Virus record (IMG/VR): IMGVR_UViG_3300024302_000069
Coordinates: 1 to 20,332 of that record
From: a virus
DNA length: 20,332 nt
Direction: 5' to 3' (one strand)
Positions 42 through 20,332 of the stretch are shown one piece after another. Under the pieces are notes generated by a model. That model was not told the origin of the DNA. It saw only the letters and a program-made list of their open reading frames with translations, and did no database searches. Position numbers and translations under genes: made by a program. Each line of letters opens with the position of its first letter. The stretch's first letter is position 1.

Positions 42-73
42 AGCTATTGAATACCAATTTTAAAAGGACTATA

Positions 74-1222
74 ATGTTAAAAGTTGTTAAAATTAGAATT
101 TATCCTAATATTGAACAAAAACAACTTATTCATAAAACATTTGGTTCATGTAGGTTTGTATATAATATTTTACTTGATGCTAAAATAAAAGCTTATGAAT
201 GCGGAGATAATTTATCTGCTCGTATGGATTTAAAACCACGATTAGTTCCTATGAAAAAAGCAAAAGGTGGAGAATTTTTAAAAGATGTTGATAGTACAGC
301 ATTACAAAACTCAGTATTAAAAATAGATATTGCTTATAAAAACTTTTTCAGAAGATTTAAACAAGGTGGAGCAGTTGGTTTTCCAAAATTTAAATCCAAA
401 CATCATTCAAGACAATCATATCAAACTTCAACAGCTTCAATAAAAAATAATAAATTATATCTTCCAAAAATAGGAAATATAAAATCTAAATTTCATCGTG
501 GCACACTTAATGGAAAAATAAAAACTGTAACAATATCTTTTGAAGCTAATCAATATTTTGCAAGTATTAATTATGAAGATGGATTAGAAGAAACTACCAA
601 AATTAATAATGGTAATACTATTGGAATTGATGTTGGTGTAAAAGTTTTTGCATATACAAGTGAAGATGAAGCTATAAATCCATTTAAGGAGCATAATCTT
701 AATAAAGATACAAAAAATATGATTAAAGCTCAAAAAGTTTTAACTAGAAGAAGAAAAGGTGGGAAAAATAGATTAAAAGCAAAAATAAAACTAGCTAAAA
801 AGCATTTAAAAATTAGAAATAAAAGAGATGATTTTTTACATAAAATTACACATAAACTTAGTGAAAACCAAACTATAAAAGTAGAAAATTTACAGATAAA
901 AAATATGTCAAAAAAAGCCAAAGGTTCAATAGAAAATCCAAATATAAGAGCAAGAGCAAAAGCTGGACTTAATCGTTCAATATTACAACAGTCTTGGGGG
1001 AAGTTCTTTGAGATGTTAGAATATAAGTTAGATAAAAATGGTGGAGAATTAATTAAAGTTGACCCTAAATATACTTCACAAACTTGTTCATCATGTGGAT
1101 ATATTTCAAAAGATAATAGATTGACACAATCAAAATTTAAATGTATAAAATGTGAAAATACTTTAAATGCTGATTATAATGCTAGTCTAAATATATTAAA
1201 TGCGGTAGGGACTACCGTTTAA
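74..1222 (+). CDS. tnpB: TnpB RNA-guided endonuclease (IS200/IS605 OrfB family)
   Basis: 382-residue TnpB, the omega-RNA-guided DNA nuclease of IS200/IS605 and IS1341-type elements and the ancestor of Cas12. The N-terminus (MLKVVKIRIYPNIEQK) is the standard family opening. RuvC motif I is GIDVGVKVFAY, motif II is VENLQIKNM with its Glu, and motif III is NADYNASLNI with its Asp near the end. A zinc finger CSSCGY...CIKCEN lies between motifs II and III. All catalytic and metal-binding residues are present, so the protein looks active. I chose ATG at 74, not the in-frame TTG at 47, because AAGGA at 64-68 is well spaced and the family N-terminus begins there. No tnpA transposase lies on either side, although only 73 bp of upstream sequence is visible. 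Confidence 0.95.
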   Translation: MLKVVKIRIYPNIEQKQLIHKTFGSCRFVYNILLDAKIKAYECGDNLSARMDLKPRLVPMKKAKGGEFLKDVDSTALQNSVLKIDIAYKNFFRRFKQGGAVGFPKFKSKHHSRQSYQTSTASIKNNKLYLPKIGNIKSKFHRGTLNGKIKTVTISFEANQYFASINYEDGLEETTKINNGNTIGIDVGVKVFAYTSEDEAINPFKEHNLNKDTKNMIKAQKVLTRRRKGGKNRLKAKIKLAKKHLKIRNKRDDFLHKITHKLSENQTIKVENLQIKNMSKKAKGSIENPNIRARAKAGLNRSILQQSWGKFFEMLEYKLDKNGGELIKVDPKYTSQTCSSCGYISKDNRLTQSKFKCIKCENTLNADYNASLNILNAVGTTV

Positions 1223-3039: not shown

Positions 3040-4244
3040 AGTTGTTTCCCCATCAGAAAAAGTTAGTAAGTGTTTCATCACCTATTTTTAATAAATATGG
3101 CTTAGTTTATCTAGTAGCAGAGCCAAGAGTTGGTAAAACTTTATCAGCAATATTTTTAGCAAAAGATAAATATAAAAACATATTAGTTTTAACAAAAAAA
3201 AGTGCAATGAGTAGTTGGCTTAAAGATTTAGAACTTGCACAATGTGATAATTTTACGGTTATAAATTATGATAGCTTACATAAAGTGGATGGTGAATTTG
3301 ATTTATTAATTTGCGATGAAGCTCACTCGATGAGTAGATTTCCTAAACCTGCCAAAAGAACTGAAAAAATAAAAGAAAGATTTGAACATTTACCAATTAT
3401 TTTTATATCAGCTACACCAAGTGCAGAATCATACTCACAACTATTTCATCAGTTTTGGATATCAAATAAAAGTCCATATAGAGAAAAAAATTTTACCCAA
3501 TGGTACAAAAAAAACGGAATTGATGACAGCTTTATAGTTCGTGGAAGAAGAGTTAAACCATATAAAAAAGTAAATCCAAATGTTTACGATATGGTAAAGC
3601 ATTTAATGGCTGATATGTCTAAGATAGATGCTGATTTTGATGTTTTAGTGCAAGAGAGAGTACATTATTTGGATATGCCTTATGAATTGAAATTGATATC
3701 AAATAAAATGCAAGAGGGTGAAATTACTATTGATAGTGTAAAGCTTGATAAATTAGAAGGTGCTAAAAAAATAAATAAATTACATCAGGTAGCTGGTGGC
3801 ACCTTGAAGTTGACAGATGAAAAAAGTATTATTCTAAGTAGATATAAAGTAGATTATATTAAAAGAAATAGCACCAATACTAAAAAAGTTGTGGTTTTAT
3901 GCAATTATATAGAAGAAAGAAAACTTTTATTAAATGAACTATTTAAGGCTACTGAGGATATTGATGATTTTAAACATGGTGATGCTTCATTTTTTGTGGG
4001 TCATATTAAAAAATATTCTGAGGGTGTGGATTTTAGTTATGCGGATACAATGATAATATATTCATTAAATTTTAGTGCAACTACTTATTTGCAGTCCAAA
4101 GACAGATTAGCTAAAAAAACAAGAAAAGATAAAATAGTAGTTCATTATTTAATCGCTAAAAATACTATAGATGAATATGTGCTAAATGCGGTTAAATCAA
4201 AAAAGAATTTCACCTCAAGTTATTATAAAAATATAAGGCTTTAG
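3033..4244 (+). CDS. SNF2-like superfamily 2 DNA helicase/translocase
   Basis: 403-residue ATP-dependent translocase of the compact phage SNF2 type. Motifs in order: FPHQ at 5-8 (Q-motif-like), Walker A AEPRVGKT at 29-36, DEAH at 95-98, SATP at 126-129, and a motif VI-like QSKDRLAK at about 354. The LIAKNTIDEYV that follows is typical of the end of the SNF2 helicase core. The arginine usual in HRxGQ of motif VI is replaced (DRLAKKTR), so the exact arginine finger is unclear. Phage relatives usually sit in replication or recombination modules. Here the gene closes a rightward small-gene operon and converges on the terminase gene. The ATG overlaps the preceding 24-codon frame. It is slightly shorter than many phage SNF2 helicases but has both RecA lobes. 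Confidence 0.85.
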   Translation: MVELFPHQKKLVSVSSPIFNKYGLVYLVAEPRVGKTLSAIFLAKDKYKNILVLTKKSAMSSWLKDLELAQCDNFTVINYDSLHKVDGEFDLLICDEAHSMSRFPKPAKRTEKIKERFEHLPIIFISATPSAESYSQLFHQFWISNKSPYREKNFTQWYKKNGIDDSFIVRGRRVKPYKKVNPNVYDMVKHLMADMSKIDADFDVLVQERVHYLDMPYELKLISNKMQEGEITIDSVKLDKLEGAKKINKLHQVAGGTLKLTDEKSIILSRYKVDYIKRNSTNTKKVVVLCNYIEERKLLLNELFKATEDIDDFKHGDASFFVGHIKKYSEGVDFSYADTMIIYSLNFSATTYLQSKDRLAKKTRKDKIVVHYLIAKNTIDEYVLNAVKSKKNFTSSYYKNIRL

Positions 4245-4339: not shown

Positions 4340-4378
4340 AAAATGAGTTTTGGTCATCCAACTGCTAAAACTCATTTT
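4340..4378. terminator. Rho-independent terminator between convergent helicase and terminase genes
   Basis: A perfect 12-bp stem (4340-4351 with 4367-4378, AAAATGAGTTTT and its complement) has a 15-nt loop and is followed by T-rich sequence on the plus strand. The A-rich left foot gives a U-rich tail on the minus strand, so it may serve both genes. Confidence 0.8.
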
Positions 4379-4421
4379 TTTAATAAATTCCAAAAAAATT
4401 AAGCAAATATTTAATCAAACT

Positions 4422-4430
4422 TGATATAAT
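4422..4430 (+). promoter_or_regulatory. Perfect extended -10 pointing into the terminase 3' end
   Basis: TGATATAAT (TGn plus TATAAT) at 4422-4430. It is the same 9-mer as each half of the palindrome in the divergent head-gene control region. No plus-strand gene follows; transcription would begin near 4437, run antisense to the end of the large terminase gene, and enter the inverted repeat at 4438-4521. Confidence 0.45.
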
Positions 4431-4437
4431 TCCCCAT

Positions 4438-4521
4438 GATGGTGGATATTTCCTTTCGTAATGTTTTTTGACAAAAATATACCACTTTGTGGCATATTAA
4501 ATGTTATACTAATCCACCATC
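4438..4521. repeat. Nested inverted repeats at the terminase 3' end
   Basis: The outer arms are 10 bp and perfect: GATGGTGGAT at 4438-4447 and ATCCACCATC at 4512-4521. The inner arms, 4476-4485 with 4489-4498, form nine pairs with one A-C mismatch around a TTT loop. The outer right arm lies in the last codons of the terminase gene (its stop is at 4504-4506). It may be a structured RNA on either strand. Apart from this and the preceding promoter-like box, the 4245-4503 intergenic region shows only the terminator. Confidence 0.5.
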
Positions 4522-6027
4522 TCTTATAGTTCTCATTGGAACAGATGTTTTCCCACTGTAACACACATATCTAATTACATCATAGCAATGATCAGGTACC
4601 CCTTTTGATTCAACATCTATACCACCTTTATCTATTTTTAATGATGGGAAAGTTCTTGTAGAGTTCCTACAAGTATCTACAAAATATAAACATGGTTTTT
4701 CAGGCATATCTTTTAATCCTTCTGCTAACATACTTTTTATTTTCTGTAGTCCTGAGATTCTTGACCCATTACTTTTATCACTTTTTACAAAATGTACTCC
4801 TAATTCTGCAAATTGATTAGCTATCGTGTCTAAACTGCTTTCTTTATTCCATATTGCGGTATCTGCACGACCTGCATATATTTTAGGTGTACAATATGTC
4901 GCTTTGATATATTCTTCCACTTTTAAAGCATTTTCTGATTGTTCAGGTATTGCATGATATAGCCCTTTGTCTTTTTCATCTCCACCATAAAATTCATGTA
5001 CAAATATAATACTTCCTTTTGGAGGGCAAAAAGTTTCTCCATTTAAAAAAGATATCTCTTCTCCGTTGGTGCGAATGTACCATAAAAAAGCATACGGAAC
5101 AGCAAGACCGTAATCATACCCACGATGAACAGTTGTGCCGTCAGGAATAAATATAGGTGATATAATGTGTTTACTTGGAGACCACTCATCAAATCCACCT
5201 AGAACTTTCATAGCATTCCAATCGCCATGTAATAATGCCATACTTTTTTCTTTGTCATCCATTCCTAACAGTCTTTTAATATCCTTATCACCTAGCTGAG
5301 GATTATCTGTAATTTTTGCAGGGATATAACATCTAGTATTCCCTAAATCGTCAGGTGGCTGAACAACAAATGGCTTTGCAGCGTTTACAAATTCATTTTT
5401 AAAATAATTTACTGTACTAGCAAAATATTCCTCACCTAGTAAAACTGGATTGGTCAGATACATTACTCTTGGCAATGTATTCTTCAAGTTAGGAGGAATG
5501 CTGTCTATTACATCTTGAACGACCCTAATCCTCGTGTTAATCTCTAAAAGTGCGCTCTTAGGGAAAGCTATAGCCTCATCAAATGCTATAAAGCCATACT
5601 CCCCACCTTGTATTTTACTAAGCTCATTGATATGATTCAGGTGCTTTAATCTAATAACACTTCCATTAATAAAAGATATCATAGGAGTTGGCTGCATCAC
5701 CACCTTACACACATTAACATCCACTAACTTTTGTAGCATTGCATAAAACCCCCCAGCTCCTTTCATGTGATTTTCTAAAAGCGATGTACTAACTCTTCTA
5801 AATAGTGCTGATGTGAAATTTGGTATCTGCAAACTATACAAAATACATGATGCCCTTGCTAAATAACTTTTACCACCACCAGCCGCACCACCATATAATG
5901 TTTCTGTACTCGGACAAGAATAAGCATATTTTTGCTTTGATGTTAAACTACCAGCTACTACTTCAATAGTCTCCTCAATAGCTTTAACTTGTTCTTTTGT
6001 ATATCCTATTTGCTTTGACTTGGACAA
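4504..6027 (-). CDS. terL: Phage terminase large subunit
   Basis: 507-residue packaging motor ATPase and nuclease that cuts phage DNA and pumps it through the portal. Walker A is GGAAGGGKS at 46-54; Walker B is FIAFDE at 146-151. The C-terminal RNase H-like nuclease shows its three acidic motifs: HRGYDYGLAVPYAF, AGRADTAIWN and VPDHCYDVIRY. The length is normal for the family. The start is TTG at 6027: AAAAGG at 6040-6035 sits 7 nt before it, and the next Met is beyond Walker A. It overlaps the portal gene's 3' end by 22 nt, so the two are translationally coupled, with portal first. It is transcribed away from the capsid genes and converges on the helicase gene. No small terminase subunit is recognised in the window. 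Confidence 0.95.
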   Translation of the reverse strand: MSKSKQIGYTKEQVKAIEETIEVVAGSLTSKQKYAYSCPSTETLYGGAAGGGKSYLARASCILYSLQIPNFTSALFRRVSTSLLENHMKGAGGFYAMLQKLVDVNVCKVVMQPTPMISFINGSVIRLKHLNHINELSKIQGGEYGFIAFDEAIAFPKSALLEINTRIRVVQDVIDSIPPNLKNTLPRVMYLTNPVLLGEEYFASTVNYFKNEFVNAAKPFVVQPPDDLGNTRCYIPAKITDNPQLGDKDIKRLLGMDDKEKSMALLHGDWNAMKVLGGFDEWSPSKHIISPIFIPDGTTVHRGYDYGLAVPYAFLWYIRTNGEEISFLNGETFCPPKGSIIFVHEFYGGDEKDKGLYHAIPEQSENALKVEEYIKATYCTPKIYAGRADTAIWNKESSLDTIANQFAELGVHFVKSDKSNGSRISGLQKIKSMLAEGLKDMPEKPCLYFVDTCRNSTRTFPSLKIDKGGIDVESKGVPDHCYDVIRYVCYSGKTSVPMRTIRDGGLV

Positions 6028-7370
6028 GATTTAGCCTTTTCATCTTTAGCTATTTTTTCTTTAGCTTCTTCTCTTTTTCTAATCTCCGCTAATTGGTCAA
6101 AATCTTCACTAGTTAAATTATTAGTTTTAAGATAGTCAAACCATTGGTCAGCACTATAGTTGCCATTTTCAAGAGCGGTATGCAGTGCATTCAGTAAGTT
6201 TGCATCTGTATCACCAATTTTAAAGTCAGTTGCCAAGCTAACACTTCCACTTTCAGTTTCACCTATATATTTAGCATGATAAACAAAAGATTGTTCAATG
6301 CCATCTTTTAGAGATTTCATAGCATTATTTAGTCCAGCATTCCCTAATGTAAAATCTAATTTAGATTCGGTTGCGGTTTGTGTCTGTTGTTTTTTACCTA
6401 AAAGCATACTCATCCCTTCTTTGGCAATTCTTTTTTCAATATTAGCTAATTCTTCTTGAACAAGTTTGATTGATGCACCAGTTGGTTCTACATAAGATAA
6501 TATTTCATCTTCACCAATTTCAATAAGTGAGTTTGGAGATATGGTCACACTTTCTTTTTCAGATGACATATCAGTTCCCAATCTTCTGTGAACCAAAAGT
6601 GGTACACAAGTTTTGTGCAAAATACTATCTAAGTCAGATGACATATTAAAATGTTTTATATTACTTAGTGCCATATCATAAAACAAAGGAGAGCTTTCAA
6701 AAAATCCAGTTTTATTAGAATAGACGGGAACTATAGGAATATATCCTAAGTTATGCTCCCCTTTTTCTACCTCATTTTCATCTTTATCTAATATTTGCCA
6801 TGTGTTTAGTGCATAGACTCTATAGATATCTTCTGAACTTTCGCTATATCCATCATAAGTCATTTTAGTATCTTTGATTATTAAAAGTGTTAATCTTGGT
6901 ACCCCATTTACATTTTCTTTTCTCCAATAGACTACATTGTGTGGTAAAATATGGCTCCAAAAAGGTCTTAGTTTGGATTGCTTGGATTGTTCTCTGGTCG
7001 TTGCATTATTATCAGGATAGCCGATAAACATAAAAGTATGACCATATTTTAAAGATGCGTTTAATACATCTTGAGCGAATAAATTTAAATGAGTTCCTAG
7101 CATATCTATATCTTCTGCTGCTTCAAGGATACTTTCTTTATTATTACTACTTAATACAATATCTTTATAAAAAGCTACACCTGTTAAGCCTGTGATTGTT
7201 CGATTGAACATATTATAGAATACTGCATTTTGTTTTCTTATTTTATAAGCAGTTGGTGTCTCTTGTGGGAATTGAACCAGCTTGTTTTTAGCTACCAATT
7301 CATCTCTACCTTCTGAAACAATATCTATCACTTTCCATTTTTCAGCCATATCTCTATTTTTTATAGTCAT
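6006..7370 (-). CDS. Phage portal protein (DUF4055-like)
   Basis: 454-residue protein with the look of the DUF4055 portal-like family: an N-terminal region with YKIRKQNAVFYNMFNRTITG and LTGVAFYKDIVLS, a central region with HNVVYWRKENVNGVPRLTLL, and a helical segment rich in Q and A (GKKQQTQTATESKLDF) typical of the portal crown side. The dodecameric portal would form the capsid vertex through which terminase moves DNA. The C-terminus is charged and Lys-rich (IRKREEAKEKIAKDEKAK). ATG 7370 has AAAGGG at 7381-7376 with 5-nt spacing. It is the first gene of a two-gene minus-strand operon driven from the divergent control region; order and strand are unusual relative to the downstream head genes. 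Confidence 0.88.
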   Translation of the reverse strand: MTIKNRDMAEKWKVIDIVSEGRDELVAKNKLVQFPQETPTAYKIRKQNAVFYNMFNRTITGLTGVAFYKDIVLSSNNKESILEAAEDIDMLGTHLNLFAQDVLNASLKYGHTFMFIGYPDNNATTREQSKQSKLRPFWSHILPHNVVYWRKENVNGVPRLTLLIIKDTKMTYDGYSESSEDIYRVYALNTWQILDKDENEVEKGEHNLGYIPIVPVYSNKTGFFESSPLFYDMALSNIKHFNMSSDLDSILHKTCVPLLVHRRLGTDMSSEKESVTISPNSLIEIGEDEILSYVEPTGASIKLVQEELANIEKRIAKEGMSMLLGKKQQTQTATESKLDFTLGNAGLNNAMKSLKDGIEQSFVYHAKYIGETESGSVSLATDFKIGDTDANLLNALHTALENGNYSADQWFDYLKTNNLTSEDFDQLAEIRKREEAKEKIAKDEKAKSCPSQSK

Positions 7371-7388
7371 TTTTACCCTTTGTGCTAC

Positions 7389-7459
7389 TGTGATTAAAAC
7401 TTTTTTTGATATAATGCTATTATATCATATCTTTATTACAAAATAGTTTTTGTGATTAA
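7389..7459 (+). repeat. Direct repeats TGTGATTAA flanking the divergent promoter
   Basis: Two exact 9-bp copies at 7389-7397 and 7451-7459 lie either side of the palindromic promoter, near the -35 region of the plus promoter and upstream of the minus promoter. They could be binding half-sites for a late-gene regulator. No regulator gene is visible in the window. Confidence 0.4.
7407..7427. promoter_or_regulatory. Palindromic divergent promoter with two extended -10 boxes
   Basis: TGATATAAT-GCT-ATTATATCA is a perfect 21-bp palindrome (7407-7415, 7419-7427). Each half is an exact extended -10 (TGnTATAAT) on its own strand. The plus box would start RNA near 7422 toward the scaffold gene; the minus box would start RNA near 7412 toward portal and terminase. 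Neither has a clear -35. The two polymerase sites overlap, so only one can be occupied at a time. The 7371-7493 region also has TGTGATTAA as a direct repeat (7389-7397, 7451-7459) and an 11-bp inverted repeat (7401-7411 with 7470-7480). Confidence 0.7.
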
Positions 7460-7493
7460 GGATAGATAGTATCAAAAAAACAAAAGGATTTGT

Positions 7494-8246
7494 ATGAATT
7501 TAAAAGAGCTTTTAGCACATTATTCAAGTAAGGCTAAAACTGATGAAGAGAAAGCAACTATAGAAAATGACTTTAAAGAAGCCATTGCTAATATGGATAA
7601 CTTAACTGCTAACCTACAATCTGAAAAAGACAAAGTAGATAATGCAAACAAAGATGTGCTAGATATTCAAAAAACATTGGATGGAAGAATGGCTACTTTA
7701 GGTAAGTTTGGACTTGACAAAGAGTTTAAAGATGAAGATGTGGATAAAATTATAGCTACTTTAAACTCTACAAAAACACCTGAGGATATCAGAAACCATA
7801 CCGCAGAAGCGATTAAAGAAGCTATTACAAATAGAGATGCTGAACACCAAGAAGCACTAAAAATTGTTATTGGTGAAAAAGATAAATACAAGTCAAATTA
7901 TGAAACTAATGTAGTTGAAAATAGCCTATTAAAGTCTATGACTAAGCATAAAATTGACCCTAAAAATCAAAAGTATATAGCAATGGATATTGCAAATGCT
8001 GGTCTTTCATTTAATCCAAGAGGAGAGATAGAATTTTTAGATAGTGGGAAAAAGCTGATTTTAGATAATAATGGTGACCCAATTAATGTAGATGGTGTAT
8101 TTGATAAATTGGTAAAAGATGGTAAATTTGATGCATTCGTTCCGAGTACAGCTCCTAATAATGGAATGCAACATAATGGTGGTGGGAAACCCACGAACGA
8201 TATGTCAGCTTTTGAAAAAATAGAAGCTGGATTAGCAAACAAATAA
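7494..8246 (+). CDS. Capsid scaffold protein
   Basis: 250-residue protein directly before the major capsid gene, the canonical scaffold position. Residues 1-150 are helical and charged with coiled-coil character (NLQSEKDKVDNANKDVLDIQ, then EALKIVIGEKDKYKSN). A compact C-terminal part follows (MTKHKIDPKNQKYIAMDIAN, GEIEFLDSGKKLILDNNGD, VDGVFDKLVKDGKFDAF). The end is Gly/Asn-rich and flexible (NNGMQHNGGGKPTND). This resembles Firmicutes-type phage scaffolds (phage minor structural GP20-like). It would direct procapsid assembly inside the shell. ATG 7494 has AAAAGGA at 7482-7488. No separate maturation protease gene is seen. It is the first gene of the plus-strand late operon. Confidence 0.83.
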   Translation: MNLKELLAHYSSKAKTDEEKATIENDFKEAIANMDNLTANLQSEKDKVDNANKDVLDIQKTLDGRMATLGKFGLDKEFKDEDVDKIIATLNSTKTPEDIRNHTAEAIKEAITNRDAEHQEALKIVIGEKDKYKSNYETNVVENSLLKSMTKHKIDPKNQKYIAMDIANAGLSFNPRGEIEFLDSGKKLILDNNGDPINVDGVFDKLVKDGKFDAFVPSTAPNNGMQHNGGGKPTNDMSAFEKIEAGLANK

Positions 8247-8257
8247 AAGGATAAGAA

Positions 8258-9175
8258 ATGGCGATACAAAATTTAGCAGAAGCTACAAAAGGTATTTCAG
8301 ATACAATGACAGAAGGGATTGTTGAGACAATAGTTACAACAAATCCAATATATGACAGCATACCATTTAAAAGTTATACGGGGTCAGCATTAGCAATTAG
8401 AAAAGAAGTTACGATGGGTAATTCAGGCTTCTACGATATTGGTGATACACTTGTGAGTAGAACACCTAGTACAACAGATTATGATTACTATAGAGCCACA
8501 AAGATAATTGGTGAAGTAGAAATGGATGATTTAGTTCAGGCAAGTAGTAATGATACCTCATTAGCCATTGAGATTGAGTCAAAAGCTAAATCAGTTTCAA
8601 GAGACTTTCAAAGCGGTATGGTAAACGGTAGCGGTACAGCACCACAGATGCATAGCCTGAAATCACTTTGTGCTACTAGTCAAACTATAGAAATATCTGA
8701 AAATGGTGGTGAAATTACTTTTGAAAAAATGGATGAAGCTATAGCATTAGTAAAGGCAAAAGATGGAGAAGTTGACTTTATTGTAGGAAATGCAACTTCA
8801 TTTTTAAGATACAAGGCATTTTTAAGAGCAAATAGTGTAAATCCTGCAGATATGATAATGAAGACTACATTAGGTAGAACTATAAGTTCTTATGAGAATA
8901 TTCCGTTTTACGTAATGGATTATATTCCTAATAATGAAGTTCAAGGTACTAGTACTGATTGTACATCATTATATTTTGGTTGTTTTGATGATGGAACAGG
9001 AAAAGTGGGAGTTACAGCTATTACACCTGCGCATCTTCCTGCTGGTATCCATGTAAAAAATGTAGGAACATCTTCAACTAAAGATGAAGAGCTATTTAGA
9101 ATTAAATTTTATGTAAATATTGTCATAGGAAGTGTTTTAGGTTTATCAAGATTAAAAGGTATTAGAAAATCATGA
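8258..9175 (+). CDS. Major capsid protein (HK97 fold)
   Basis: 305-residue shell subunit, a typical length for scaffold-assisted HK97-fold capsid proteins. Recognisable parts are an N-terminal helix-like arm (MAIQNLAEATKGISDTMTEG), the E-loop and P-domain region with early strands (SALAIRKEVTMGNSGFYDIG), a spine helix around 100-125 (AIEIESKAKSVSRDFQSGMV), an A-domain motif (VDFIVGNATSFLRYKAFLRA, then IPFYVMDYIPNNEVQG) and a C-terminal strand (IKFYVNIVIGSVLGLSRLKG). AAAAGGA at 8245-8251 supports ATG 8258. The stop overlaps the next start (ATGA, 9172-9175). Assignment rests on motif pattern plus its position after the scaffold gene. Confidence 0.9.
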   Translation: MAIQNLAEATKGISDTMTEGIVETIVTTNPIYDSIPFKSYTGSALAIRKEVTMGNSGFYDIGDTLVSRTPSTTDYDYYRATKIIGEVEMDDLVQASSNDTSLAIEIESKAKSVSRDFQSGMVNGSGTAPQMHSLKSLCATSQTIEISENGGEITFEKMDEAIALVKAKDGEVDFIVGNATSFLRYKAFLRANSVNPADMIMKTTLGRTISSYENIPFYVMDYIPNNEVQGTSTDCTSLYFGCFDDGTGKVGVTAITPAHLPAGIHVKNVGTSSTKDEELFRIKFYVNIVIGSVLGLSRLKGIRKS

Positions 9176-13227: not shown

Positions 13228-13272
13228 TAGATAAACTTATTCCACCAAAAGTGTTAATATAGCTATTTAAGA

Positions 13273-13295
13273 TATAATATATAATTAATATTATA
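13273..13295. promoter_or_regulatory. Possible -10 and AT inverted repeat before the tape measure gene
   Basis: TATAAT at 13273-13278 with no TG extension or clear -35, inside an 8-bp inverted repeat (13273-13280 with 13288-13295). The DNA here is nearly pure A/T, so chance matches are likely. It could give extra transcription of the long tape measure gene. Confidence 0.3.
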
Positions 13296-13309
13296 TAAAA
13301 GGTTTTTTA

Positions 13310-16300
13310 ATGGCAATAAAAGTAAAGATTGAGATTGCTCCACCTAGCAAAAGTGAATTGAATAAGGTTACTAGTGCAATTAAAACTGCCATTAATCCTA
13401 AAATAGACTTATCGTATGCAGAAAATCAAATTAAAGCTATTCAAAATCAAATTAAAAGTATAAAACCTACTAAATTATTTGATATGGATATATCTGATAC
13501 TGTAAGAAATATAGATAAAATCAAGAAACAAAATGAGCTATTAAGACAATCAAGAGCTGCATCTGTTCAAGATGCTGCACCCACTAAAAGTATAGATAAT
13601 CTAAAAAAAGTAGAAGCACTTATGAAAAAAATAAATGCTATGGGTAAACATAAAGAAGGACTTGGTACTACTGAAAATATAAATAATATTCAAAAAGAAA
13701 TTAAATTACTTGAAAAATATGAAAAAGCACTTAGTAAAATAAGAGCTGGATTTGATTTGAGTGCTACAAAAAATAATAGAATATCAGAATCACTAAAGAG
13801 ACAAATATCTTTAGGGAAAGAATATTTAGCGGTGCTTATCAAAATACAAAAACAATCTCACCAAATAAACAAAAACGAAAAAGATAGATTAGCAAATGCC
13901 GTAAAGCAAAACGAAGCCATCAAGAAACAAAATGAGCTATTAAGACAATCAAGAGCTGCATCTGTTCAAGATGCTGCACCCACTAAAAGTATAGATAATC
14001 TAAAAAAAGTAGAAGCACTTATGAAAAAAATAAATGCTATGGGTAAACATAAAGAAGGACTTGGTACTACTGAAAATATAAATAATATTCAAAAAGAAAT
14101 TAAATTACTTGAAAAATATGAAAAAGCACTTAGTAAAATAAGAGCTGGATTTGATTTGAGTGCTACAAAAAATAATAGAATATCAGAATCACTAAAGAGA
14201 CAAATATCTTTAGGGAAAGAATATTTAGCGGTGCTTATCAAAATACAAAAACAATCTCACCAAATAAACAAAAACGAAAAAGATAGATTAGCAAATGCCG
14301 TAAAGCAAAACGAAGCCATCAAGAAACAAAATGAGCTATTAAGACAATCAAGACCTACATCAACTCAAAGTACACAAAGTGATTCATCAAATAATACTAG
14401 CAGTTCATCGACCAGTAGAACTAGCAGGGATAGGTTTGATATTTATGGCAATTTAAACAAAGATTTACAAGAACTACAAGACACTTTTCATCGAACTCAA
14501 ATGACAAATGATGAGTTAATTTCTCAAGCAAAAACATTATTTAATACTTATAAGAATAAAGCTGAAAATATAATAACTTCATCGCCGAAAGAGATTCAGG
14601 CGATAAAGAATATTAAAATTGCTTACACAGGATTGATTAAAACTATAACAAATAATAAAAGCTTATCTCATGTTGACAAATTGACCCAAAGATATGAATT
14701 ATTACAAAGACAATTAAACGAGTTAAATAGTTTAAATTCAGCGGCTTCAAGAACAGAAGCTAGTCGGATTAGAAATGAGATGAGTGCTACAAATTCAAGA
14801 CTACAGTCATTGCAAACTGAAACTGAATTAACTAGGAGACTACAAGCAACACAATCTGAAATGAGAAATGCGATATCTTTGGCACGGTCAAATCCACATT
14901 TAAATTCACTTGAAAGAGAACTTGAAATAATATCTGCATTAAGAAGGTCAAGGGAAAATTTAAATAATATAAATTCAGCTGGTGCTAGGGATGAGCTTAG
15001 AAATGTTGAAAGACTATATGACTTACATAATGCAAGAGCTACACAACAAAGAGAATTTATAAGCAGAAGGTCGTCGGAAGATTCAAGACATAATATATAT
15101 GTTCAATCACTGCAGAGGTCGATGCGAAGAATGTTGGATTATTATGTAGGTATATATGCAGTAACTGAAGGTATTAAAAATACTATTGGTGGTGGTTTAC
15201 GATTGAATAAAGAACTAGAAGATGCTGGACTTGGTATTGCGGCTTTAGTTTCAAATAATACAGCACTAATTGATTCCAATAAAAAATTAATGAGTTCAAT
15301 GGAGCATTTTCAGGCTTCACAAAAATTATCAAAAGGTACTTTAAGAAAATTAAGAGAAGAAGCAGTATTAACTGTGGCAAGTTTTGGTGAATTAACAGAA
15401 GTATTTAGACAAAGTATCGGTGGTGCTTTAAGTGGTGGGAAAGCATTTGGTAAAGACCTTGAAACCATATTGAACAATACTATTGAATTTGGTAAAAAAT
15501 TGACCAATTTCGCAGGTGCGATTGGTATGCCAATGAGAGGTGCCTTAGAAGAGTCAAGATCTATGATAGAAGGGGGAAATATTACTAGAGACTCAAGAAT
15601 ATCTGTCATGCTATGGGGGTCACCAAAACAAGCAAATAAGGCAGTTTTAGCGGCAAAAGCTGATGTTAATAAAGTTGGTGCTTTGTATGATTTAATTATG
15701 AATAAATTTAAAGCATTTGATGCACTTGAATCACAAGATAGTATGTCTAAAACTCTGGCAAGATTAAGTGACCAATGGGATGCAAGTAGAAGAACATTTA
15801 CAGATTCCTTATTCAAAGCAGTTCAGCCACAACTTAAAGCTTTTACAGAAGAACTAAAGAAAAATGAAGGTGCAGTAAAAACTTGGGGAAATGTTTTGGG
15901 CAGTACATTTAACACAGTTTCAACTAGTGTAAAATTTCTTTATGACAATTTTGAATTAATAGCTGGAAGCATGATAGTAAGGTCTCTTGTTTCAACTAAT
16001 GGAATGCTAAACAGACTAATGGGAACTATGGTAAGTCTTGGCACTTGGATAGCAAGAATCCCTATAGGATTAGCCGCTATTGGTGGAGCTGGGATTATAG
16101 CTTCTATTGGTGGAGCTGGTGCTGCAATGGTTGGATTAGGTGCGACGATTGCGGCGATTGCCTTGCCTGTTGCAATAGTTGGTGCGGCTTGGTTTGGATT
16201 TGTGAAAGATGTTGAACATACAACTATAGATGATAGTACAGCATATAATATATTTTCAGGATTAGGTGTTGGGTTAAAAACGATTGTAATGAGACTGAAT

Positions 16301-19300: not shown

Positions 19301-20332
19301 TATTCTATAGACAAAACAGCAGAGTACTCTAACAATATGCTAGATGCATTAATTGAAAGTGCTGCTGATACAGAAGAAGGTGTATCTATCTTTTGGGAAA
19401 GTGTTAAGAAAATTAGAGATTACACTTATGACATAAAAAGATTATATGCAGAAGCTAGTGGTAATGAATTAGATGTACTAAAAATAAATAAAACACAATC
19501 CGTTGATATGTTTAAAGCTACAGTTGAAGGTTATGGTACTGTTTTTACAGATGCATTTGCTGGATTTAATGATTATTTAAGTGGAGCAAAAACTGATAGT
19601 GGCTTATCTAGTAGCACTATAGCAAGTATAAAAAGTGAGCTTGATGGATATCAGAATATTTTGAGTTCAGTATCAGATTTTGACTTTAAAATTGAAAGTA
19701 GTGATGATATTCTTGTGTTCCTAGATGCTATTGATGGTATTGAAACTAAAATGAATATGCTTAATCTTGACAGTGCAACAGGATATGGAACAACAATAGA
19801 AGATACTTCTAATGCCTTAAGTGAATTGGAAAAAAGCTTAAGAGATGTATTGGATAGTAGTAATGAATACGAAGAGTTTTTAGATAGTATAAAAGATTGG
19901 TATAATGATTTAGATTTTTCTATTGACCCAATCATAAAAACGCTTCAACAGTTACAAAACGAAATAAATAATATTGAGAATTTAAGCCAAACAGATTATC
20001 AAGAAAAAATAAGTAATTTAATTTCAGATACTAAAGAATACCATAATATACAAATTGAAAATTTAGACAAACAAATAAGTTTAGCTACTAATTTAAAAGA
20101 TACTTTTGATGGTTTAGATGATATTGCACCTACTCTTGAAAGCATAAAGGCTAGTATAGGTAATATTAGTAATTTAAATGTAGATGATATTGAGAAAGAG
20201 GTTAATAATTTAATTTCAGATACTAAAGAATACCATAATATACAAATTGAAAATTTAGACAAACAAATAAGTTTAGCTACTAATTTAAAAGATACTTTTG
20301 ATGGTTTAGATGATATTGCACCTACTCTTGAA
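13310..20332 (+). CDS. Tail tape measure protein, partial (open at window end)
   Basis: Reading from ATG 13310 there is no stop up to the last base: 2341 codons, incomplete. AAAAGG at 13297-13302 lies 7 nt upstream. Parts in order: N-terminal coiled coil with a 133-residue exact duplication (72-337); a Ser/Thr/Asn linker (349-375); long helical coiled coils; a membrane-active Gly/Ala segment at about 904-965 (IGLAAIGGAGIIASIGGAGA); more coiled coil; a Gly-rich linker near 1541-1550; a second hydrophobic Ala-rich segment at about 1628-1712; a mixed region with WESVKKIRDYTYDIKRLYAE; then a 64-residue repeat array at the end. Tape measure proteins set tail length and leave the tail tip during DNA entry. 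At about 0.15 nm per residue the tail would exceed 350 nm if most of the chain were extended helix. Confidence 0.93.
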   Translation, partial: MAIKVKIEIAPPSKSELNKVTSAIKTAINPKIDLSYAENQIKAIQNQIKSIKPTKLFDMDISDTVRNIDKIKKQNELLRQSRAASVQDAAPTKSIDNLKKVEALMKKINAMGKHKEGLGTTENINNIQKEIKLLEKYEKALSKIRAGFDLSATKNNRISESLKRQISLGKEYLAVLIKIQKQSHQINKNEKDRLANAVKQNEAIKKQNELLRQSRAASVQDAAPTKSIDNLKKVEALMKKINAMGKHKEGLGTTENINNIQKEIKLLEKYEKALSKIRAGFDLSATKNNRISESLKRQISLGKEYLAVLIKIQKQSHQINKNEKDRLANAVKQNEAIKKQNELLRQSRPTSTQSTQSDSSNNTSSSSTSRTSRDRFDIYGNLNKDLQELQDTFHRTQMTNDELISQAKTLFNTYKNKAENIITSSPKEIQAIKNIKIAYTGLIKTITNNKSLSHVDKLTQRYELLQRQLNELNSLNSAASRTEASRIRNEMSATNSRLQSLQTETELTRRLQATQSEMRNAISLARSNPHLNSLERELEIISALRRSRENLNNINSAGARDELRNVERLYDLHNARATQQREFISRRSSEDSRHNIYVQSLQRSMRRMLDYYVGIYAVTEGIKNTIGGGLRLNKELEDAGLGIAALVSNNTALIDSNKKLMSSMEHFQASQKLSKGTLRKLREEAVLTVASFGELTEVFRQSIGGALSGGKAFGKDLETILNNTIEFGKKLTNFAGAIGMPMRGALEESRSMIEGGNITRDSRISVMLWGSPKQANKAVLAAKADVNKVGALYDLIMNKFKAFDALESQDSMSKTLARLSDQWDASRRTFTDSLFKAVQPQLKAFTEELKKNEGAVKTWGNVLGSTFNTVSTSVKFLYDNFELIAGSMIVRSLVSTNGMLNRLMGTMVSLGTWIARIPIGLAAIGGAGIIASIGGAGAAMVGLGATIAAIALPVAIVGAAWFGFVKDVEHTTIDDSTAYNIFSGLGVGLKTIVMRLNIIWLKFLATLKNSGLPTFIDDNIGERVKAAQDEFKDFVAIGVSNNEVLFNPSDWDKTKEALKGIKESFNSISFKKETIKDLKIYKKALEDLRVELKADSGGKFVNAIDTNIDAIKSKIDAATSSMKKQNDETKNQVVLKRKLTAIKFNEVVGDKIGGVAKEYIDITKEIKKYNKELSYNKESLELWKYATVDAIKKAKDGFNNLSEDTKNKITFDIDTLSIENYEEKFLAALNNIKNNNEIDKYLLEIGNLSTIINNITNTTADNQSLNIVKKLSNNILKSKKDILSIDEEIEKAQRITNNFKSKTLAIDKKSIKLKEEESTILNSIEFAKSKNNKAMKKILDLQLNLNRAKQDSLELSKKEEIRLQNIHNTKIATDLALEKQKIDKSANKYDIQESGIDANIKTLTEEKKKLQDELTMAIKNGNNELVKTKTAEISLKDQKIATLDTERLKTAELSTQYNILLKQKEVLGGLNVDLVNTGAVGDRTVNIENQIKKAKARIEITQAEMGAIESKGNTLEYNVAITGVKKAKAELKGLEKNLPTGGSAGSGGGGSNDYKAKLIYEIEIKGFDKFSNAIADSISAINKLDNIEKNKELSDKERFRSNIIGYKNLAGAVQSFAKEGSSSYKFLGKVQKAMHIAEIVLAAERLAIKLGFMSAEVTGAVAKDTAITASSTVAAGVSSMVGLTFPANLAALAATMAAIGVLTGGSTSAAAAPVIPTTASHNTKEIKSSFELSNSGTTLDGIKIETKPISAEYAKLNVLILGDIKRTVADANITMSSLGLGVFKMSAEIGTNLKAGLHTSKELTDANIKYKESLKEVAKKDKSIVEDYIDKSIYGDNSVDKLGDDIKKTLDKSNDMIMDSLSYFRDGLSRSVSVTLAKKSYKAMMDESLKKSGIDDVGKVFFTELFEGTTQYLGKKKGGLHGFAISLGEIITGGKDLTDFVQTNIYDELIKKYDGMVDISSIYAEVIDSGVKEWTTKKGDMWSSTKRFYAQQWAEIQYSIDKTAEYSNNMLDALIESAADTEEGVSIFWESVKKIRDYTYDIKRLYAEASGNELDVLKINKTQSVDMFKATVEGYGTVFTDAFAGFNDYLSGAKTDSGLSSSTIASIKSELDGYQNILSSVSDFDFKIESSDDILVFLDAIDGIETKMNMLNLDSATGYGTTIEDTSNALSELEKSLRDVLDSSNEYEEFLDSIKDWYNDLDFSIDPIIKTLQQLQNEINNIENLSQTDYQEKISNLISDTKEYHNIQIENLDKQISLATNLKDTFDGLDDIAPTLESIKASIGNISNLNVDDIEKEVNNLISDTKEYHNIQIENLDKQISLATNLKDTFDGLDDIAPTLE
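13520..14353 (+). repeat. 399-bp perfect tandem duplication in the tape measure gene
   Basis: Bases 13520-13954 are identical to 13919-14353: two whole 399-bp units (13520-13918, 13919-14317) and a 36-bp third start. The period equals 133 codons, so the frame is kept and the protein gains an exact 133-residue coiled-coil unit. Absence of any difference, even at silent positions, points to a very recent event or to a copy number that varies in the population. Confidence 0.95.
20014..20332 (+). repeat. 192-bp repeat array in the tape measure gene, cut by the window end
   Basis: Bases 20014-20140 and 20206-20332 are identical over 127 bp, a 192-bp period (64 codons, frame kept), and identity runs to the last base. 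The residues before the first copy (TLQQLQNEINNIENLSQTDY) are a diverged version of those before the second (TLESIKASIGNISNLNVDDI), so the array is older and at least three units long. Its true length is unknown. Confidence 0.93.

Follow-up and report, generated by a model that had tools for sequence, protein, structure and literature searches.

A 21-bp palindrome of two face-to-face extended -10 elements as a likely bidirectional promoter between the packaging and head operons of a phage contig

Introduction

The virus record analyzed here, a 20-kb contig (20,332 nt, referred to as the window) with a DNA of about 30% G+C, contains a portal gene and a major capsid gene that belong to divergent operons. 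The portal start codon is at 7370 on the minus strand, the first rightward gene starts at 7494 on the plus strand, and the 123-bp gap that separates them contains the perfect 9-3-9 inverted repeat TGATATAATGCTATTATATCA, located exactly at 7407-7427. The question raised by this locus is whether the palindrome acts as a promoter of one or both operons, as an operator or as an RNA element, and whether it could set the relative output of packaging and shell proteins.

Gene Layout of the Divergent Operons

Investigation of the genes flanking the palindrome (Table 1) revealed a leftward operon of portal and terminase large subunit (terL) and a rightward operon that starts with a gene in the scaffold position and continues past the capsid gene through head-tail genes as far as the tape measure. 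The first genes behind both divergent leaders have a purine-rich ribosome binding site (RBS). The scaffold role of the first rightward gene product is putative and assigned by position only; the protein had no family match in phrog/Pfam-type searches and resembled a gene of L133 only weakly. The major capsid protein is 37-39% identical to those of Xp15 and Effie, which are the relatives with the best annotation.

TABLE 1 Features of the window, with positions counted from its first nucleotide.
Feature	Position	Strand	Evidence and remarks
TnpB (IS605 OrfB-type RNA-guided nuclease)	47-1222		Closest plasmid match Hydrogenimonas (Campylobacterota), 48.6%
Terminase large subunit (terL)	4504-6027	-	phrog_979, PF03237; second gene of leftward operon
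Portal protein	6006-7370	-	phrog_145 (E 1e-94), PF13264; RBS AAAGGG; predicted leader 42 nt
T7 tract	7401-7407	+	Sequence; directly upstream of rightward -10
Extended -10 of predicted rightward promoter (TGATATAAT)	7407-7415	+	Exact TGnTATAAT; would serve scaffold-position/capsid operon; predicted start 7422 (A)
Extended -10 of predicted leftward promoter (TGATATAAT)	7419-7427	-	Exact TGnTATAAT; would serve portal-terL; predicted start 7412 (A)
Predicted hairpin	7423-7468	+	MFE fold; from second nucleotide of predicted rightward (scaffold/capsid) mRNA
Possible second leftward promoter (TTTTTTTGATACTAT)	7466-7480	-	Inverted copy of rightward TTTTTTTGATA; predicted start about 7459
Scaffold-position protein (putative)	7494-8246	+	First gene of rightward operon; RBS AAAGGA; predicted leader 72 nt
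Major capsid protein	8258-9175	+	phrog_212 (E 1e-41)

Single-protein searches detected no close relatives of the portal and capsid proteins among viral contigs or of TerL among genome contigs, and the TerL search of viral contigs returned one distant locus (33%). Profile searches recovered about 200 loci, most of them 30-44% identical, and all of these were collinear where this could be judged, as were both Xp15 and Effie. Capsid and terL/portal were on the same strand in 48/48 placeable loci and terL preceded portal in 51/51 terL-portal pairs of the relatives, the loci in both counts not being de-duplicated. The region 4504-9175 of the window is alone in having portal and terL on the strand opposite to the capsid gene and portal before terL. 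Since portal and terL keep their physical order while each is reversed, the layout reflects neither a single block inversion nor an assembly fold-back; a fold-back chimera was also rejected on the grounds that the ancestral order, when folded, puts portal to the left of terL, whereas terL is to the left of portal in the window, and that both leaders have an RBS of their own. The reversal of portal and terL relative to the capsid gene, present in none of the relatives found, represents an unusual rearrangement. A DNA search with positions 7200-7700 against phages yielded short AT-rich matches only.

The Palindrome and Its Two Extended -10 Elements

Both arms of the palindrome are exact copies of TGnTATAAT, one on each strand, and the original prediction of a 21-bp palindrome with this motif on either strand is correct to the base. 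The TATAAT hexamers are at 7410-7415 (plus strand) and 7424-7419 (minus strand), with a gap of 3 bp between them, and the symmetry extends no further outward than the TG/CA bases that bound the two extended -10s. With the usual 7-nt discriminator after each -10, the predicted starts both fall on an A and are 10 bp apart, each (7422 on the plus and 7412 on the minus strand) within the -10 of the opposite strand, as had been claimed.

A bare palindrome (arms of at least 9, loop of at most 8) occurred in 2.3% of shuffles of the 123-bp gap, and the palindrome alone is only mildly unusual. What stands well above chance is the promoter match: one of 20,000 dinucleotide shuffles of the gap (a rate of 5e-5) had an exact extended -10 on each strand, and none had the face-to-face geometry. 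The whole window contains six exact extended -10s (five on the plus strand and one on the minus strand) compared with 2.8 expected from shuffles, and the sole exact copy on the minus strand is the leftward arm of the palindrome. Apart from its own reverse strand, TGATATAATGCTATTATATCA has no second match at up to 3 mismatches in the window (0/100 shuffles). No match to a -35 was seen by inspection on either side of the palindrome, and a promoter scan with -35/-10 hexamers did not score above shuffles; extended -10 promoters can, however, do without a -35. The extended -10 rule applied here is a borrowed one.

Other functions of the palindrome were considered and rejected. An RNA hairpin as its main function is at odds with both predicted transcripts starting inside the palindrome, and only transcription from the upstream leftward candidate promoter, the weaker one, would allow such a hairpin to form. 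An intrinsic terminator was discarded for lack of a G+C-rich stem and for its location at gene starts. Searches for RNA families and tRNAs found none.

The best explanation, which we consider likely, is a bidirectional sigma-70 promoter composed of two face-to-face consensus extended -10s with starts 10 bp apart. Sequence, geometry and gene layout are direct observations, as are the statistics of same-geometry sites in other viral contigs, and we infer promoter activity, the start sites and the exclusivity of the two orientations: host RNA polymerase would bind the palindrome facing left or right, but never both ways at once, with leftward transcription leading into portal-terL and rightward transcription into the scaffold-position gene, the capsid gene and the downstream head and tail genes. 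Bidirectional promoters are a known and common class in bacteria, with a preferred start spacing of 18 bp, while spacings of 10 and 23 bp are also common (PMC12825309). The 3-bp gap between the two -10s makes the predicted start spacing exactly 10 bp and would thereby place the site in one of these common classes. Judged from the DNA alone, the palindrome is thus best explained as a phage example of the known 10-bp class, involving no new mechanism. The original prediction of two mutually exclusive extended -10 promoters for the divergent operons is in this respect supported by the exact motifs and by the 10-bp class (PMC12825309), while its further claim, that exclusion fixes the ratio of motor to shell, is not.

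Many bacterial bidirectional promoters yield mRNA on one side only (PMC10268837), and the palindrome might likewise be used for the rightward (capsid) transcript alone, the leftward -10 being weak or incidental and portal-terL being transcribed from a separate promoter such as TTTTTTTGATACTAT (7480-7466). In line with such one-sided use, the T-tract and the set of T residues at -17, -18 and -27 are confined to the rightward side, the leftward side having T at -17 only, and T7GATA recurs in inverted form at 7470-7480, where TTTTTTTGATACTAT and TTTTTTTGATA make up an 11-nt perfect inverted repeat of a kind seen in 1.2% of shuffles. The leftward extended -10 is, however, a perfect consensus, whereas the hexamer of the alternative, TACTAT, has 4/6 matches with a predicted start on a T, and a portal mRNA originating from TTTTTTTGATACTAT would carry the palindrome, folded, in its leader. 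Exclusive rightward use is therefore regarded as improbable.

Relative Output of the Two Operons

It was originally proposed that opposing polymerases, by blocking each other at the shared site, hold packaging motor and shell at a fixed ratio, a function that would add to the bidirectional promoter and not replace it. Opposing polymerases cannot bind such a promoter simultaneously (PMC12825309), both -10s of the palindrome are perfect, so that the palindrome may be occupied more fully than the tested E. coli promoters were, and competition does arise once one side is strengthened. In those tests, however, none of the five E. coli bidirectional promoters (5/5) showed basal competition, their basal activity being too low for it, and competition was seen only after one side had been strengthened. 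Moreover, a fixed ratio needs no competition, as two independent constitutive promoters give one too, portal and capsid are required in very unequal numbers in phages, and asymmetric features are present outside the palindrome. Control of the ratio by occlusion is thus unlikely, and this part of the original prediction is not supported.

The relative output is probably set by one-sided features (the T-tract, a predicted 5' hairpin on the rightward transcript only, and the RBSs) and not by polymerase competition as such. The first 54 nt of the predicted rightward leader have an MFE of -15.3 kcal/mol (z -5.2), a value that none of 200 shuffles equaled, while the leftward (portal) leader is unstructured in the folding prediction. 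A fold as good as that of the rightward leader is reached by 0.8% of the 54-nt segments of the whole window, and the predicted hairpin is notable but not unique. It may stabilize the mRNA, bind a protein or act in translation; 5'-terminal hairpins are known to stabilize mRNAs, including those of ompA and papA (reviewed in PMC3997798). A wider scenario, in which a shared, exclusive promoter of consensus strength would gate packaging and shell, the T-tract and a stabilizing hairpin on the capsid mRNA would set the unequal output, and the layout would have been acquired with the portal/terL reversal seen only in this contig, is offered as a doubtful possibility.

The TGTGATTAA direct repeats on either side of the palindrome, which had been suggested as sites for a late activator or repressor, are exact at 7389-7397 and 7451-7459. 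Shuffles of the 123-bp gap contain a 9-nt direct repeat of some kind in 9% of cases, and with one mismatch allowed TGTGATTAA is no commoner in the window than expected by chance (9 copies vs. 13.8 expected). Against the suggestion, the repeat is near chance level, the two copies are asymmetric about the two predicted starts and the right copy lies inside the 3' arm of the predicted hairpin; a regulatory role of the TGTGATTAA copies is improbable.

The Same Geometry in Other Viral Contigs

A scan of viral contigs for the relaxed pattern TGNTATAATNNNATTATANCA detected 115 stretches, of which the 80 listed represent 64 independent sites, and 60 of these 64 could be classified relative to genes with a simple longest-ORF gene caller. 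The classifiable sites are depleted within open reading frames (ORFs), where 15% were located compared with 65% of AT-rich 21-mers from the same contigs (P = 1e-13) and 32% of single extended -10s (P = 0.016). Sites between divergent genes make up 17%, more than in random AT-rich DNA (5%; P = 0.003), but no different from single extended -10s (15%; P = 0.83). Most of the same-geometry sites lie between co-directional genes, and divergent use is therefore no special property of the class. A 3-bp gap with exact arms was not preferred over a 4-bp gap, the two being found in five viral contigs each.

The same contigs bear on whether the palindrome is instead the operator of a dimeric regulator, such as a late repressor or activator of the phage, with an incidental promoter overlap. 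In the control region of divergent genes, a perfect 9-3-9 inverted repeat has the classic shape of an operator, and a single DNA strand of the palindrome folds on itself. Its arms, however, are exactly the sigma-70 extended -10, the symmetry stops at the outer borders of that element, and the window contains no second copy of the site, although a single-copy operator remains compatible with this. The 64 same-geometry viral sites likewise have no complementarity beyond chance outside the promoter bases, as observed for the n of TGn (16 vs. 18.1 expected), for the flanks and for spacer pairs (29 vs. 25.1 expected). As the symmetry of these sites is limited to promoter bases, the class behaves as promoter pairs and not as operators, and an operator function of the palindrome is considered highly unlikely.

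The same palindrome is also carried between divergent genes by a phage group (L207/L210) whose members are 97.8% identical around the site and count as one observation. In L207, an unrelated phage, TGATATAAT-N3-ATTATATCA at 3989-4009 separates the gene of a putative HExxH metallopeptidase from an operon encoding a sigma-70 region 2 protein near terL.

Host Hints and Other Features of the Window

Regarding the host, a member of the Campylobacterota is plausible on the basis of the TnpB match. A stable fold at the 3' end of the TnpB gene (1201-1314) could be an omegaRNA or right end.

The AT-rich inverted repeat AAAATGAGTTTT...AAAACTCATTTTTTT at 4340-4381, between the convergent helicase and terL genes, has the appearance of a two-way terminator by eye, but was not called in the scan. 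An exact TGATATAAT at 4422 (plus strand) points antisense into terL. Just upstream of the tape-measure start, at 13272-13296, is a further AT-rich palindrome, ATATAATATATAATTAATATTATAT, each strand of which contains TATAAT. The tape-measure gene itself has a 399-bp in-frame tandem duplication at 13520-14361 (99% matches, with a 300-nt core that is 100% identical) and, where the gene is cut off (19964-20332), a repeat of 192 nt; these repeats are either a recent duplication or an assembly effect.

Comparison With Known Systems

Sigma-70 promoters of Campylobacter jejuni and Helicobacter pylori do without a -35, and in the epsilonproteobacterial sigma-70 promoter gnTAnaAT precedes the start by 4-8 nt, a -35 is missing and T is favored at -17, -27 and -38 (PMC3847290). 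The -10 motif and the absent -35 of the phage site fit this pattern on both sides, while T is present at -17 and -27 on the rightward side and at -17 alone on the leftward side; the relevance of this pattern depends on the host assignment from TnpB.

With regard to transcript structure, the predicted hairpin of the capsid mRNA would be 5'-terminal like the stem-loops of ompA and papA (PMC3997798), beginning at the second nucleotide of the predicted transcript. The Pc/Pr promoters of plasmid pLS20 (PMC4207663) are overlapping divergent promoters on a conjugative mobile element and in this respect resemble the phage site; pLS20, however, has a dedicated regulator (RcoLS20), operators and DNA looping, whereas neither regulator nor operator evidence was obtained for the phage site.

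The palindrome is a clean candidate of consensus strength for the 10-bp bidirectional promoter class in a phage, and, since both -10s are perfect, a good natural site for testing whether polymerase competition matters. The closest likeness is to the bacterial bidirectional promoters described by Warman, Grainger et al. (PMC12825309, PMC10268837), in which starts 7-25 bp apart are served by reciprocal -10s, as they would be here at the predicted 10 bp, one polymerase binds at a time and the site often lies between divergent, functionally linked genes. The phage site differs in its location between packaging and head operons and in that its promoter activity is a prediction. It also differs in the make-up of the -10s: the commonest bacterial class, with 18-bp spacing, has one shared degenerate -10, whereas the two -10s of the phage site are both perfect to the extended consensus, face each other and share no bases.
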